Shown: positions 43,386-64,000 of the stretch, in pieces | How positions within the stretch are numbered: position 1 is the first letter of the stretch | Layout of the letters: each line of letters begins with the position of its first letter | IMG/VR virus record: IMGVR_UViG_3300034198_013760 | Location: 1-64,000 of that record | Direction: 5' to 3' (one strand) | DNA from: a virus | DNA: 64,000 nt | Translations under genes and position numbers: made by a program | The notes under the pieces: generated by a model | Told to the model about the DNA's origin: nothing | The model's input: only the letters and a program-made list of their open reading frames with translations | The model's database searches: none

Positions 43386-44762
43386 TTAATATTTTATAAT
43401 TTCATTTATTACGAATAATTTATTTTTTAAATTAATCATATCAACTTCTTTTGCTTTATATATGGGTTGTTTTGTATTTTTATAAACAAAACTATCATAT
43501 TTGTATGGATTATAAGTAACAACATTACTATTAGACTCTTTTGGCATGTTTTCACAAGGATATAAACAATAATCTACTAATGTCCCAATTACAAAGGCGT
43601 GAACATTTTTATTTTTTTCTATTCTAACCTTTTCTCTACCACCTTCTCTAACTCTGAATTCAACATCTTTTAATTTAACATAATCCGCATACATTATTAC
43701 TTTTGATTTGTAGGTTATTGAAAAAGTATGTTTATGTAAATTATAGTACACCATAACTTTTTTACCCTTTAAATCATCTTTTGAATTATCATTACCACAT
43801 TTATGACAAATATATGGGTCATCTCCTCCATCACTTAAATCCCAAGACCAACCACATTTATCACAAGTAACAGTATTATTTTGAACTGATTCAGATATAT
43901 TTTTTTTATTAATAATTTCTTTTATTTCTTCAACAGTTGAATATAACATGGTTAAAAACATTTTCCAACCCTTTTGACTGTATGTTTGGATTAAATCAAT
44001 AATCCTTAAAAAATATGGCTCATAATCTGGTGTGTCTTTATATAATTCAGATACTTTTGGATACTCTGTCATAATTGATGAAAGTATTTTTTCAAACTTA
44101 CTATCAAATCCTCTTTGTCCATTCATTTCATCTATTATGTCATATGACAAAGGATTCAATGGTTCTAATTCATTGAAAAATCCTAATATATTTTTTAATG
44201 AACCTAATAATAATTCTCTATCTTTTTCATCTCTGACATACTTAATTCTTTCTTTATATTCTTGGACTAATGCCTCAAAAAACTCACCCGTTATTCCTCT
44301 AAGTTCAATTCCGTGAGAATAATATAATTCAGGAAAATTATTTGGGTCTGCGTATTTTGATAAATATTTTTTAGAAATTTTTGTTGTTATTGTCGGGTCA
44401 ACCGCATGTAAAAATTCATGATATAAAGAATTATATAAATTCTTTTTACTCATAGAATATTTTGGATTAACAACTAAAAAAAGATTTTCAATACTTGGAG
44501 TATCTGTAGTGTCATAAGCAATTGCCGCAAAAGTTTCAAATGTCGGGTCTATATATACAGGTAAATAATATTCAGTACCATCTAAAGTTGTTATTGGTAT
44601 ATTTTTAAAAAAATATTGAGAACGTTTTTTTGAAGTTTTAATTTCTGTTTCTAAATCAGATAAAAGAGATATTAGGGTTGATAAGTTTTTATCATCCAAT
44701 TTAAATCTCTTACTCGATTCATTTAATTTAAAATATTGGTTTTCAGTTATTATTATTTTCAT
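43386..44762 (-). CDS. Putative zinc metallopeptidase with zinc ribbon, 458 aa
   Basis: H115-E-F-L-H119 within NSLYHEFLHAVDP is an HExxH zinc-peptidase motif, with D122 or a later Glu (EFFEALVQEY) as possible third ligand. Residues about 299-325 form a four-cysteine zinc ribbon: CDKCGWSWDLSDGGDDPYIC plus HKCG. The C-terminal part (YYNLHKHTFSITYKSKVIMY, RIEKNKNVHAFVIGTL) resembles a small phage/bacterial domain of unknown function. The N-terminus MKIIITENQY is a leader seen in phage proteins. It lies between two neck-region genes and overlaps the upstream stop. It could be a virion-associated protease or a maturation factor; no substrate is evident. Confidence 0.62.
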   Translation of the reverse strand: MKIIITENQYFKLNESSKRFKLDDKNLSTLISLLSDLETEIKTSKKRSQYFFKNIPITTLDGTEYYLPVYIDPTFETFAAIAYDTTDTPSIENLFLVVNPKYSMSKKNLYNSLYHEFLHAVDPTITTKISKKYLSKYADPNNFPELYYSHGIELRGITGEFFEALVQEYKERIKYVRDEKDRELLLGSLKNILGFFNELEPLNPLSYDIIDEMNGQRGFDSKFEKILSSIMTEYPKVSELYKDTPDYEPYFLRIIDLIQTYSQKGWKMFLTMLYSTVEEIKEIINKKNISESVQNNTVTCDKCGWSWDLSDGGDDPYICHKCGNDNSKDDLKGKKVMVYYNLHKHTFSITYKSKVIMYADYVKLKDVEFRVREGGREKVRIEKNKNVHAFVIGTLVDYCLYPCENMPKESNSNVVTYNPYKYDSFVYKNTKQPIYKAKEVDMINLKNKLFVINEIIKY

Positions 44763-45327: not shown

Positions 45328-47100
45328 TTGGATTTAAACGAAAATGATAATAAAATATTGTTGGAACAAAGGGCTTTAGAAGTCCTTGATAAGTATGATG
45401 GTGCCAACAATTATCTTCTAAGATTAAAATATCAAAAAGAAAAAAATAGTAAGTTTTATCCAACAAGAGCCCAATCGGAATACATTTTAAATTTTCATAA
45501 TACCATTCCTAAAATTGCAAAAAAATGGGTTGATTTGGACCCTTATTTTGCAAAAAAACTTGCGGACGAAAAACTTTATACACAAGTACCTGAACAAGTT
45601 TGGATTGAAAAACTTTTAGTTGAAAAAGACAAGGCGTACCATATTTGGGGTAAAGTTTTTAGTGGAGAATCGTTACACGAATTTTGGTTACCAAAAGTAT
45701 CAATTATAAAAACACATAAGACAGAAAAAGTTGAAATAGACTATTCAAAATATGATAATAGGCCTCCATTAAATCATCAAAAAGAAGCGATTGAAAAATT
45801 AGTTGGAACCAAAAGATTTATTTTGGCCGATGATATGGGGTTAGGTAAAACGACTTCAACAATTATTGCAGCATTAGAAACAAACGCCAAAAAAATATTA
45901 ATAATTTGTCCCGCGTCATTAAAAATTAATTGGATGAGGGAAATACAAAATTATACCAATAGGTCCGTTTATATTTGTGAAGGTAAAAATTTTTCAGAAG
46001 ACCACGATTTTGTAATTGTTAATTATGATATTATCAAAAACTTTTATGATATTAAAAACAGAGAAGAAAGTTTAATATATAAAGTTAATTTTGATTTAAT
46101 CATTATTGATGAAGCCCATTATTTACAGAATGCCCAAGCCCAGAGGACAAAACTAGTTAATAGTTTTGCAAAAAGAACTGATAGACTTTGGTTGTTAACA
46201 GGAACTCCAATGACATCAAGACCGATTAATTATTATAATTTATTAAATCTAATTGAATCTCCTGTGGCCCAAAATTGGATGGCTTACGCAATAAGATATT
46301 GTGAAGGATATCAATTTAGAGTTGGTGGAAATAGAAAGGTTTGGAACGTAAATGGTGCGTCTAATTTAGATGAATTAAGAGATAGAACTTCTAAACAAAT
46401 CTTAAGAAGATTAAAAGAAGATGTTTTAGACTTACCTGATAAAATTATTACCCCCGTATATCTTAGACTGAAATCAAGATTGTATGAAGAACTGATGGGA
46501 GAATACTATGATTGGTATCGAACAAAAAAAGAAGAATCGTCGTCTTTAACCCTACAATTTTCCAAGTTGACAAAAGTAAGACAAATAATTGCCACAGAAA
46601 AAATATTTAGTACAATTGAATTGGCGGAAAATATTGTAGAACAAGGTAAAAAAGTTATTATTTTTACAAATTTTACTGATTCATTAGAAAGGATTGTTGA
46701 GCATTTTGGTAAACAATGTGTGTTTGTTGACGGAAGTTCTTCTAAAATTGCAAGACAAAACTCAGTAGATAGGTTTCAGGATGATGAAAAAATTAAAGTT
46801 TTTGTTGGGAATATAAAAGCGGCAGGAGTTGGATTAACATTAACTGCTGCTCAGGCGGTAATCATGAATGACTTGTCTTTTGTTCCTTCAGACCATAGTC
46901 AAGCGGAAGACAGAGCGTATAGATATGGTCAAAATTCAAATGTTTCAGTATATTACCCTATTTTTGAAAATACTATTGAAGGGGCAATATATGACATTCT
47001 TTCAAAGAAAAAACTTATAATAGGAACCGTTATGGGAGATTCTATGGATAAGTCAGATTTTGCTGAAGAAATACTAAATTATATAAATAAAGGTGTATAA
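45328..47100 (+). CDS. SNF2-family helicase/translocase (UvsW-type role)
   Basis: A 590-aa superfamily 2 motor. Motif I is ADDMGLGKTTS (residues 167-177), motif II DEAH (261-264), motif III LLTGTPM, and the C-terminal lobe has FVGNIKAAGVGLTLTAAQAV with motif VI SQAEDRAYRYGQ. The family resembles the SMARCAL1-type annealing helicases, and in this phage it may act like T4 UvsW in fork remodelling. The frame is closed by an upstream TGA and has no ATG before residue 200 that would keep the motor intact, so TTG at 45328 is the most likely start. It begins the plus-strand cluster, followed by the SOD-nuclease gene. Confidence 0.85.
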   Translation: MDLNENDNKILLEQRALEVLDKYDGANNYLLRLKYQKEKNSKFYPTRAQSEYILNFHNTIPKIAKKWVDLDPYFAKKLADEKLYTQVPEQVWIEKLLVEKDKAYHIWGKVFSGESLHEFWLPKVSIIKTHKTEKVEIDYSKYDNRPPLNHQKEAIEKLVGTKRFILADDMGLGKTTSTIIAALETNAKKILIICPASLKINWMREIQNYTNRSVYICEGKNFSEDHDFVIVNYDIIKNFYDIKNREESLIYKVNFDLIIIDEAHYLQNAQAQRTKLVNSFAKRTDRLWLLTGTPMTSRPINYYNLLNLIESPVAQNWMAYAIRYCEGYQFRVGGNRKVWNVNGASNLDELRDRTSKQILRRLKEDVLDLPDKIITPVYLRLKSRLYEELMGEYYDWYRTKKEESSSLTLQFSKLTKVRQIIATEKIFSTIELAENIVEQGKKVIIFTNFTDSLERIVEHFGKQCVFVDGSSSKIARQNSVDRFQDDEKIKVFVGNIKAAGVGLTLTAAQAVIMNDLSFVPSDHSQAEDRAYRYGQNSNVSVYYPIFENTIEGAIYDILSKKKLIIGTVMGDSMDKSDFAEEILNYINKGV

Positions 47101-47141: not shown

Positions 47142-48821
47142 ATGAAAAATCTAGTAAACAAAATTGAAAGAATAGAAAAAGAAATTATTAAATCAGAATC
47201 TAAGACTACCCAAAAATTTTTTCTTTCTGAAATGAAACGAATTGGTATTGAAAAATTACCTTATTCGTTTGCATCCCTAAAAAGATTTATTGACCCTGAA
47301 ACAATGGACTACCATTATAATAAACATTATAAGGGTTATGTTGAGAAACTAAACACCGCCCTAAATAAGAGAAAATTTGGTGATTTAGATTTGGAACAAA
47401 TTGTTAAATCGATAAGTAGATTTAATAAAACAATAAGAAATAATGCCGGTGGAGCTTACAATCACGCTCTTTTTTGGAAGATGTTATCTCCAAAACCACA
47501 AAAACCTAAAGGTCAACTCTTAAGAAAAATTGAAAGTGTATTTGGAGGAGTTCCCGCATTTAAGAAAAAATTTGAAGAAGAGTGTAAAGAAAGATTTGGG
47601 TCGGGATGGTGTTGGTTAGTAATAACTAAAAACAATTCATTAAAAATTGTTTCGACTCCAAATCAAGATAATCCATTAATGAATGATGTTAAAGATGGGG
47701 GATACCCAATTTTAGGATTGGATTTATGGGAACACGCTTATTATTTGAAGTATCGAAACAAAAGAGATGAATATATTAAGAATTTTTGGGATGCGGTTAA
47801 CTGGGAGTTTGTTGAGAAACTTTATTTAATGAAAGTGGAAACAAAGTTAACGGAAGAAGTTGTTTTAGAACAATTAATGAGAGATAATAATGACTTTCTT
47901 TTAATTGAACAACAAAATGAATCCCAAAGTTGTTCTTCTGAAGAAACAAAATTATTTAAAAGATTATTGTTCCCCCCAACAAATTTATTAGAAAAATCAA
48001 AAGAGTATGGGGAATTTATAAAAGAATATACTGCAGGATGGATGGATGTTTTGAGAAAATCGTATCCTGAAAATTGGAAAGAAAGAAATCAATTATTTCA
48101 AGGACATGAGGCCGGATTATATACTAAAGAAAATGTTAGGTCACTTTTAATGAACTTAACATCGTCTTATGTTGCGTTTTGTATTATTCACAAAGATATT
48201 AATCAATATCTAAAAAGTACAAACCAAAAAATAATCGAGTATGGAGATGACCCTAAAAAAAATCTATTGGAATTAAGAAGATTCTTTTCGGTTTTAGATG
48301 GTTTAAGAGCAACAATTTTTAAAAGAGGCGAACAATCAATAACTTTAAATAAAATAGGAAGAGTATTAAAAAAATCAGATTGTTTAGGTAAGAGAAACGA
48401 ACAAGCGTCAGAACAAATTATAAATCAAATTTTGGGTGCAAATACTTGTGAAATAAAATCAGGAGGTGGAATTAGTAATGATATGTATTCAGGAATTGAT
48501 GCCATTCTTAATATTGAAGGAAAACGTTTAAAGGCTCAAATAAAACCTTTCACAAACGCATATAAAAAAGAATTTGACACTGAAGAATATTATATAGTTG
48601 AAGGGGCATCTAGTACAAAGGCCTACAAAACTGTGGATTTATTAATTTTTGTTAATGTAAAAACTAAAAACGTGAAAATTTTTAATTCAAAAAACGTTAG
48701 AATAAATCAAGGAAATTATATTATACCATCAAATTATTTAGCTTATGATTTATTTGCGAAAGAACCAATTGAATTAATTGATTGTAACAAATATTTATCA
48801 GAAAATATGATATGGGAATAA
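47142..48821 (+). CDS. Mn-type superoxide dismutase fused to a PD-(D/E)xK-like nuclease domain, 559 aa
   Basis: Residues about 36-230 are a complete Fe/Mn superoxide dismutase: the four metal ligands align as H58 (YHYNKHYKGYV), H108 (NNAGGAYNHALFW), D194 and H198 (LGLDLWEHAYYLKY). G104 together with Q175 in STPNQDNPLM is the manganese-type pattern rather than the iron type (Gln before the second His). A 35-residue N-terminal helix precedes it. Residues 240-400 are a helical linker domain I do not recognise. Residues about 418-510 look like a PD-(D/E)xK-type nuclease core: E437 in CEIKSGGG, D453 in SGIDAILNIEGKRLKAQIKP with Q466-x-K468. The frame is unbroken and overlaps the gp13-like gene by ten bases. 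The SOD call is firm; the nuclease call is inference. Confidence 0.85.
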   Translation: MKNLVNKIERIEKEIIKSESKTTQKFFLSEMKRIGIEKLPYSFASLKRFIDPETMDYHYNKHYKGYVEKLNTALNKRKFGDLDLEQIVKSISRFNKTIRNNAGGAYNHALFWKMLSPKPQKPKGQLLRKIESVFGGVPAFKKKFEEECKERFGSGWCWLVITKNNSLKIVSTPNQDNPLMNDVKDGGYPILGLDLWEHAYYLKYRNKRDEYIKNFWDAVNWEFVEKLYLMKVETKLTEEVVLEQLMRDNNDFLLIEQQNESQSCSSEETKLFKRLLFPPTNLLEKSKEYGEFIKEYTAGWMDVLRKSYPENWKERNQLFQGHEAGLYTKENVRSLLMNLTSSYVAFCIIHKDINQYLKSTNQKIIEYGDDPKKNLLELRRFFSVLDGLRATIFKRGEQSITLNKIGRVLKKSDCLGKRNEQASEQIINQILGANTCEIKSGGGISNDMYSGIDAILNIEGKRLKAQIKPFTNAYKKEFDTEEYYIVEGASSTKAYKTVDLLIFVNVKTKNVKIFNSKNVRINQGNYIIPSNYLAYDLFAKEPIELIDCNKYLSENMIWE

Positions 48822-49924
48822 TCGCAGAACCTGAAAGAACAAAACTTTACACCAGAATAAGACACCTGTTAGGTGCTCCAATAAGAGGTGTTGAATTAGA
48901 GGACGAAATGATGGACTCTTTACTTGAATTTGCTATTGGGGATTACTCCCAATACATTCAAGATTGGTTAATCGAATCTCAATGGTCTGCATTACAAAAT
49001 CTAAATTTAGATGAACAATCATTAACAAAGGCGTTTATTACAAGAAGTTTAGATTACGAAACAAGATATAGTTATGCGTATTCTAAAATAGTTGGACTAC
49101 AGGCAGGAGGACCTTGGGTTTTAAAGAAAGATTACATTCAATTACAAAAAGGACAACAATTATATGAAGTTCCGGCTAATAGAGAAATAAATGAATTACT
49201 ATGGTTTACTCCTGCAGAATTAACAAATATTTTATTTGACCCTTGGTCTTTTGGAGTTATGGGAGGACCCGGATTAGGAGGTCCTGGAGGATATTCACAA
49301 ATCGGTTATAGTGGTTCATACTTTTTAATGCCAGCATTTGATATGTTACTCAGAATGCAAGAAATTAATATCCAAAGAAGAATAATTGCTTCAGATTTAA
49401 CATATAGAATAACTGCATTACCTGATGGTAAAAAATTAGTTCATTTAATGAATACACCTGGAGGTAAATTTGATTTTGGGAATTCTAACTTTTATCAGGG
49501 AAAAGTTTGGTATTGGTATTATGATACTGAAGGTGCAGACAGAGACCAATGTTTAAAAGACAATCCTGATATTATCAAATTACCATCTGACGTTCCTTTA
49601 GATTCTATTGATTGGGTTGATTTAAATAATCCATCCCAACAATGGGTTAGAAGATGGTTTATTGCGTTATGTAAAGAAACTTTAGCAAGAGTTAGGGGGA
49701 AATATAGTGGAAATTTAAAAACACCTGATTCAGAGTTAACAATGGATTATCAATCTTTACTCACTGAAGCCAAAGATGAAAAAGATAAGTTATACACTGA
49801 ATTATCTGCTAGACTTGAGAGAATGAGACCTGAAAAAATGATGGAAAAAGAGGCGTTAACCGCTGAAAACCTTAATAAGGCAATGAAGTATAGAGCATTT
49901 CCTCGTCAAATATATGTAATTTAA
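48812..49924 (+). CDS. 13: Neck protein gp13-like, 370 aa
   Basis: The C-terminal half reads WVRRWFIALCKETLARVRGK then YSGNLKTPDSELTMDY and LLTEAKDEKDKLYTELSARL. This is the pattern of T4-type neck proteins gp13 and relatives, in which a transmembrane-free helical segment with R.K/G.....P..E...D...L..EA...K..L follows a beta domain. A Gly-rich loop (GGPGLGGPGG) lies near residue 150. T4 gp13 is 309 aa. gp13 helps seal the packaged head and attach the tail. It is translationally coupled to the SOD fusion gene by a ten-base overlap. Confidence 0.68.
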   Translation: MGIIAEPERTKLYTRIRHLLGAPIRGVELEDEMMDSLLEFAIGDYSQYIQDWLIESQWSALQNLNLDEQSLTKAFITRSLDYETRYSYAYSKIVGLQAGGPWVLKKDYIQLQKGQQLYEVPANREINELLWFTPAELTNILFDPWSFGVMGGPGLGGPGGYSQIGYSGSYFLMPAFDMLLRMQEINIQRRIIASDLTYRITALPDGKKLVHLMNTPGGKFDFGNSNFYQGKVWYWYYDTEGADRDQCLKDNPDIIKLPSDVPLDSIDWVDLNNPSQQWVRRWFIALCKETLARVRGKYSGNLKTPDSELTMDYQSLLTEAKDEKDKLYTELSARLERMRPEKMMEKEALTAENLNKAMKYRAFPRQIYVI

Positions 49925-63038: not shown

Positions 63039-64000
63039 TTAAAAATTATTTTCTACGGCTAAACAAACCTCACCATTTTCTCTAATAAGTCTAGACATAT
63101 TGTCAAACGAAATAAACGCATGACCCTGTAATCCCCAGCTTAACCCCCAACTATTTTTTATTCTAAATAATTTAGTTTTTAAATCCACTCCATTTATTAC
63201 GTATGCATGTCCACCAGCATATCTACCCGATACTGTTATAATACCCTTGCTATTTGGATAAAACATTCCGTAATACCAATTTGTACCTACAACAACGGGT
63301 CCTACATTTAAAACTGTGTTCGCCAATGTATTAACATCATATGCCCAATAATATGACGCGATTTTATTTATATTTTTTAAATATTTTGCACCCGCTCTTA
63401 CTGATGTTCCAGCATAATTTTCTCCAGGCCATTCATCAATTTTTTGAGCTTCTTTATATATTATTACAGGAGAAACAACTGGATGAATACCGTTATGAGT
63501 TATAGGTCCATCCTCAATCCAATGAGCCCAAGCATATCCAACACACATTGGTGTACTTCCTTGATTTCCGTTCCAAATATTATCTTGCCAATATCTTGAA
63601 GTAACTATTGGTGTGGATACGTTAAACTTATTTGTTATTAAATAATTTTTATCTCTCGTATCAACGGAAAACTGTCTACCTAAAAGGTTAGATAGTGAAG
63701 ATGGAGTTTCGGCAATTAATATTGTTAATATATAAAATTCGCCATATTCAAATAAACCTTGTCCGTTATTAAAGTCAAAGTCAGACGAGTTTAAAGTACA
63801 ATATTGATATGGGATAATTTGAGAACTATCAATTGGATTGTTTAATCTATAATATCCCGTACTACCAGTATTAGTGATACCACTTAAAGTAAACACTGAA
63901 GTTGAATCTGCAAATTGTAGTATTGTCGATAATTGATTTCCATCCAAATCAATATCACTGAAAGTAAATCCTGAAATTCCGTTAGGTGTAAATGAACTAC
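63039..64000 (-). CDS. Papain-like cysteine peptidase, 5' end outside the window
   Basis: The frame is open to the right edge (upstream residues read [20 protein letters not shown]), so the true start lies beyond 64000. Counting from the TTG at 63947, the C1A peptidase triad appears in order: Q129 and C135 in [18 protein letters not shown]247 in [12 protein letters not shown], and N265 in [10 protein letters not shown], the classical papain spacing. About 110 residues before the catalytic domain could be a pro-region or attachment domain. It lies at the head of the fibre-gene group, two bases from the adhesin gene. It might process fibres or attack surface proteins; no signal peptide can be judged without the 5' end. 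Confidence 0.85.

Follow-up and report, generated by a model that had tools for sequence, protein, structure and literature searches.

The internal proteins that T4-like phages are known to bring into the host are single proteins, each with a short targeting peptide, and phage superoxide dismutases (SODs) are usually classed among the auxiliary metabolic genes that are expressed inside the cell. The T4 internal head proteins IPI, IPII, IPIII and Alt possess capsid-targeting propeptides and are processed after L/I-x-E, the reported motif of the prohead protease gp21 (PMC9026906). Among the Dar antirestriction proteins of phage P1, DarB has an N-terminal capsid-targeting signal (PMC9024508), and the ejection proteins of the giant phages phiKZ and SPN3US are processed at S/A-x-E or A-x-E (PMC9026906, PMC5694885). 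Here, we describe a gene in the window, the whole 64,000-nucleotide stretch of viral DNA that was analyzed, the product of which, in a T4-like phage, is probably a capsid-cargo polyprotein from which processing by a prohead protease would release an SOD and a nuclease as separate proteins.

An SOD joined to a nuclease-like module

The gene occupies positions 47142-48821 (+) as a single stop-free open reading frame of 559 amino acids, and both the SOD and the C-terminal nuclease-like segment that had been noted in an earlier sequence-only reading were found within it. Among the loci fetched up to that stage of the analysis, 142 ORFs were found to carry the two domains within a single frame. The possibility that the gene is really two adjacent frames was ruled out, since split copies are rare (L035/L036/L172 and L121) and each resembles one frameshift. 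The SOD-nuclease fusion is genuine and conserved, and is not an artefact.

The SOD (residues 31-238; 47232-47855, +) extends to the linker site L236-T237-E238 and was matched by Pfam over residues 37-226, with Sod_Fe_N (2.4e-21, residues 37-116) and Sod_Fe_C (5.8e-39, residues 122-226) both far over the cut-off. Its closest PDB sequences were SODs, mostly of the Mn type (6gsc, 5e-60; 5a9g, 1.8e-59). The metal ligands H58, H108, D194 and H198 and the Mn-type residues G104 and Q175, all of which had been named beforehand, were invariant in 35 of 35 non-redundant relatives (<92% identity); the ligands, second-shell and Mn-type residues were also invariant across 131 distinct SOD domains, confirming a full Mn-type SOD with an intact active site. 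Fusion of the SOD to several kinds of partner might suggest that its fold serves as a catalytically dead scaffold for binding or oligomerisation. This reading is scarcely credible, however, given the invariance of the four ligands and second-shell residues and the position of the SOD as the most conserved part of the protein (73% mean pairwise identity).

The nuclease-like module (residues 257-559; 47910-48818, +) comprises a helical N-terminal half followed by a PD-(D/E)xK-like core. An AlphaFold2 model of residues 264-559, with 35 family members as input, reached a pLDDT of 88.9 and a pTM of 0.83. When this module was compared with PDB using Foldseek, the top four matches were PD-(D/E)xK enzymes, namely three chains of I-Ssp6803I and then Hjc (best match E 1.6e-3, probability 1.00, with low TM-scores of 0.16-0.22 by query length), and the viral matches included an annotated PD(D/E)XK protein. 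The suspected PD-(D/E)xK-like alpha/beta core is thereby borne out in the predicted structure. By sequence, no Pfam family matched the module over the cut-off and no PDB entry matched the core; a baseplate domain (PF20954, E 0.011) was rejected, as it fell under the Pfam cut-off and appeared in just one of 35 members. Five residues spanning 48399-48545 (+) were invariant in 35/35 relatives: E420 (48399-48401), D447, D453 (48498-48500), and Q466 and K468 of the Q466-x-K468 motif (48537-48545). D453 and Q466-x-K468 had been proposed as core residues together with E437; the latter is kept in only 9/35 relatives and was ruled out as a catalytic residue, E420 being invariant instead. Together, the model and the invariant residues support a PD-(D/E)xK-like nuclease fold, for which cleavage activity may be presumed.

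Two further details of the earlier reading required revision. A helical N-terminal half beginning near C264 belongs to the nuclease module itself, so that the domain boundary lies at approximately 257-264 and not near residue 400. Likewise, the stretch of about 160 unrecognised residues that had been placed after the SOD consists of a low-confidence linker (236-261) and this helical half, with no separate domain.

A single scan of IMG/VR identified at least 241 stretches that encode a relative, of which 80 were kept. The earlier reading knew of no SOD with a nuclease-like domain, and our search of the literature, from which subscription papers were largely absent, likewise found no description of such a fusion; the IMG/VR relatives and the UniProt entry A0A6J5L953 show that it is not unique. 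With a match to the nuclease module at TM 0.78, the latter, a 501-aa protein in BFVD/UniProt that is named only 'superoxide dismutase [uncultured Caudovirales phage]', very probably shares the SOD-nuclease architecture. Searches made in a phage collection returned only stand-alone SODs and one nuclease module standing alone, in the uncultured megaphage LR756501 (735 kb; L082:7743-8612, +), where it lies downstream of an ORF read as PhoH-like; as a query, this module found no IMG/VR relative. When the genome contigs of 84,980 species were scanned using a nuclease-module profile of 14 related members, no relative was confirmed; a cellular origin or prophage location was rejected within the scope of those contigs, and the module appears to be phage-borne.

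Genomic setting and L/I-x-E motifs at the domain joints

The gene lies between an SNF2-family helicase (45328-47100, +) and a neck, or head-tail adaptor, gene (PHROG 211; 48812-49924, +). This order, already noted for the window, is common to the relatives, with SNF2 upstream in 144/145 loci and the neck gene downstream in 135/145, establishing a fixed locus of a large clade of uncultured T4-like phages; the position beside the neck gene is late-gene-like. Replication and tail genes of the T4-like kind are present in the window. Neither a prohead protease nor a capsid gene was found among the window proteins searched (64 kb of a 70-kb fragment record), and among 19 relatives' contigs, which are fragments, a T4-type prohead protease is encoded on seven and the Gp23 capsid protein on nine, the absence of these genes from the other contigs being uninformative because the contigs are fragments. 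The N-terminus of the relatives' Gp23 reads SFLINE/A where T4 gp23 has SFLTE/A, and the initial segment of an acidic scaffold-like gene beside the protease also ends in L-x-E. Judged by the capsid protein, Flavobacterium phage immuto and Microcystis phage Mel-JY01 are among the nearest isolates.

Several other proteins drew our attention. Genes near the capsid gene in L092, L097 and L093 encode small proteins starting MKNNKIHINE/S, MNSKKKHISE/A and MNKKINE/S, which look like further prohead-processed internal proteins. The window encodes a 458-aa protein (43386-44762, -) that has zinc-ribbon-like cysteines, a C-terminal PF25735 domain and an N-terminus, MKIIITENQYFKLNES, with an L-x-E motif resembling the predicted leaders. 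Three proteins of approximately 500 aa (L025:1121-2623, L052:832-2328 and L022:1159-2637, all on the - strand) combine an ITE-type N-terminus, zinc-ribbon-like cysteines and the Phage_L5_gp82 domain (PF25735) with a C-terminal relative of the nuclease module. Adjoining a virion structural gene at 63039-63947 (-), the window also encodes a papain-like cysteine protease domain (PF00112, 8.2e-07).

In the SOD-nuclease protein itself, L/I-x-E motifs fall at the domain joints. A predicted propeptide or capsid-targeting segment (residues 1-30; 47142-47231, +) ends in L28-S29-E30, and a variable spacer (residues 239-256; 47856-47909, +) lies between the two linker sites, the second of which is L254-I255-E256. 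Nearly all of the 35 relatives have [LIV]-x-E 11 residues upstream of the LPY of the SOD, and the linker that runs from V224 to C264 contains two more [LI]-x-E sites. Near-invariance was seen at E30, at E238 and in the column adjoining E256, although the mean pairwise identity is only 29% in the propeptide and 33% in the linker, versus 73% in the SOD; the full-length model has its lowest confidence at 22-32 and 236-261. When every architecture was considered, L/I/M/V-x-E stood directly before the SOD in 78/78 non-redundant proteins, and the strict form [LI]xE[AGS] was present in 36/41 linkers, compared with 4.6 in shuffled linkers. Most of the proteins that end after the SOD are devoid of linker sites; the nuclease-alone proteins retain a short leader with a matching site. 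Under a control rule for conserved L/I/V/M-x-E with variable flanks, five neighbouring protein families yielded no sites and the SOD-nuclease family yielded one (E238), while E30 and E256 did not satisfy it, conservation or gaps in their flanks being the probable cause. L/I-x-E is a short and common motif, and the P1' residues of the window's protein (M31, E239 and Q257) differ from the commonest ones for T4. Cleavage after E30 and E238 is what these sequence patterns suggest.

In the mechanism that we infer for packaging, cleavage, ejection, the two enzyme activities and the nuclease target, the N-terminal propeptide of approximately 30 residues would carry the precursor into the prohead core, where a T4-type prohead protease of the gp21 family would cut after L/I-x-E before the SOD and at the two sites flanking the spacer, so that a Mn-SOD of native size and the PD-(D/E)xK-like nuclease would come free as two proteins within the head. 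Purely as conjecture, both would exit with the DNA at infection, whereupon the SOD might clear superoxide around the incoming genome or in a stressed host, and the nuclease might attack host or competitor DNA.

Alternatively, the protein could remain a permanent bifunctional enzyme in the infected cell, whose SOD quenches superoxide while its nuclease breaks down host DNA or acts on replication intermediates; on this view, the L-x-E motifs would be mere linker helices. Most relatives do hold both domains in one frame, and the gene adjoins SNF2 and is near the DNA polymerase gene. We nevertheless consider this unlikely, as the site before the SOD is kept whatever precedes it and the linker sites exceed the shuffled expectation.

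Exchange of modules at neck-anchored loci

A scan anchored on the neck gene, blind to both SOD and nuclease, covered 80 loci. SOD-nuclease was found in 26 of these and SOD alone in 14; a zincin-like module (HExxH ... EDEA) was combined with the SOD alone in 13 loci, with the SOD and an 'SCK' module in a further nine, and with the SOD and a 'QVKP' module in another six. The nuclease alone accounted for four loci and SOD plus QVKP for three, the remaining five being single cases. The QVKP module is homologous to the nuclease module of the window (hhalign 97.3%, 2e-11), and the SCK module is not; from their motifs, we read the zincin-like module as a putative peptidase and SCK as a putative nuclease. 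In three proteins of 909-935 aa (L199:1249-3975, +; L210; L224), an extra unrecognised C-terminal module follows SOD and the QVKP nuclease, joined via a segment with L/I-x-E motifs.

SOD and nuclease thus occur apart at the same locus and their covalent link is therefore dispensable, which further argues against a permanent bifunctional enzyme. On a neck tree, which was built by a quick method and has some weakly supported branches, the SOD-nuclease fusion appeared in both deep branches, and the architecture labels required approximately 22 changes, with 14 for nuclease type and four for SOD presence. These changes also bear on the idea that the product is packaged as an internal protein that stays uncleaved or has a structural task. 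In sunlit, oxic water, its SOD would shield virion DNA from oxidants, and the nuclease-like fold would do no more than bind DNA ends or aid packaging. SOD has been reported in the virions of giant eukaryotic viruses (PMC9405923), and the gene does sit beside a neck gene. Yet the nuclease residues are invariant, and some 14 swaps of nuclease type while the neck itself stayed conserved are a better fit to a changing target than to a fixed structural task, making such a protein quite improbable.

Collectively, the L/I-x-E sites at the joints and the swapping of modules shift the likely meaning of the gene from a permanent bifunctional enzyme to a cleaved capsid-cargo precursor. Whether this extends to the whole clade, such that these large T4-like phages possess an evolvable one-gene cassette of swappable zincin-like, SOD and at least two unrelated nuclease-like modules, cut by the protease in the head and co-injected with the genome, we regard as evenly balanced. 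If true, a polyprotein with modules exchanged between prohead-protease sites would constitute a natural protein-delivery cassette, placing antioxidant and DNA-cutting activities in the host ahead of all phage gene expression and indicating what phages require at the very onset of infection. Phage SODs would then gain a virion-borne role, and searches of uncultured phages with the junction rule could reveal further packaged enzymes.

Comparison with known systems

The nuclease module shares its invariant E / D / Q-x-K pattern with I-Ssp6803I (2ost) and Hjc, which made up its top four Foldseek matches, but differs from them in its extra helical N-terminal half, low TM-scores and lack of a sequence match. 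Other large phages also carry an SOD: PA5oct and Vibrio phage 2.275.O encode stand-alone Fe/Mn-SODs, which have no nuclease module and are only ~28-30% identical to the SOD of the window. The capsid protein of the jumbo phage PA5oct is T4-like, and the SOD of this phage (QCG76142.1), in which the four ligands are kept as judged by eye, begins MNDSIKKYISIAE/A, a short leader with IAE/A that looks like a T4-like targeting peptide. This SOD is marked ESI-MS/MS, as are the PA5oct portal, capsid, scaffold and baseplate proteins; the same mark is given to FtsH and a subunit of a recombination endonuclease, so that a virion location is not proven and the case for a packaged SOD from PA5oct is suggestive only.

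The ejection proteins of phiKZ and SPN3US are, as proposed here for the SOD-nuclease, internal proteins that are processed by a prohead protease and delivered to the host, but they employ another motif and protease branch, and their cargo includes a virion RNA polymerase. The Dar proteins of P1 are, again as proposed for the SOD-nuclease, large functional proteins carried in the head with an N-terminal targeting signal, but are separate proteins for which no SOD or PD-(D/E)xK module has been reported. The closest likeness is to the T4 internal proteins: the SOD-nuclease has a predicted N-terminal propeptide ending in L/I-x-E, and its clade has a T4-type protease and capsid protein, with putative host-directed activities residing in variable cargo. 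Unlike those proteins, the SOD-nuclease precursor, whose packaging we predict from sequence, combines at least two enzyme modules that are separated by such sites, and its proposed cargo comprises an SOD and a PD-(D/E)xK-like nuclease.
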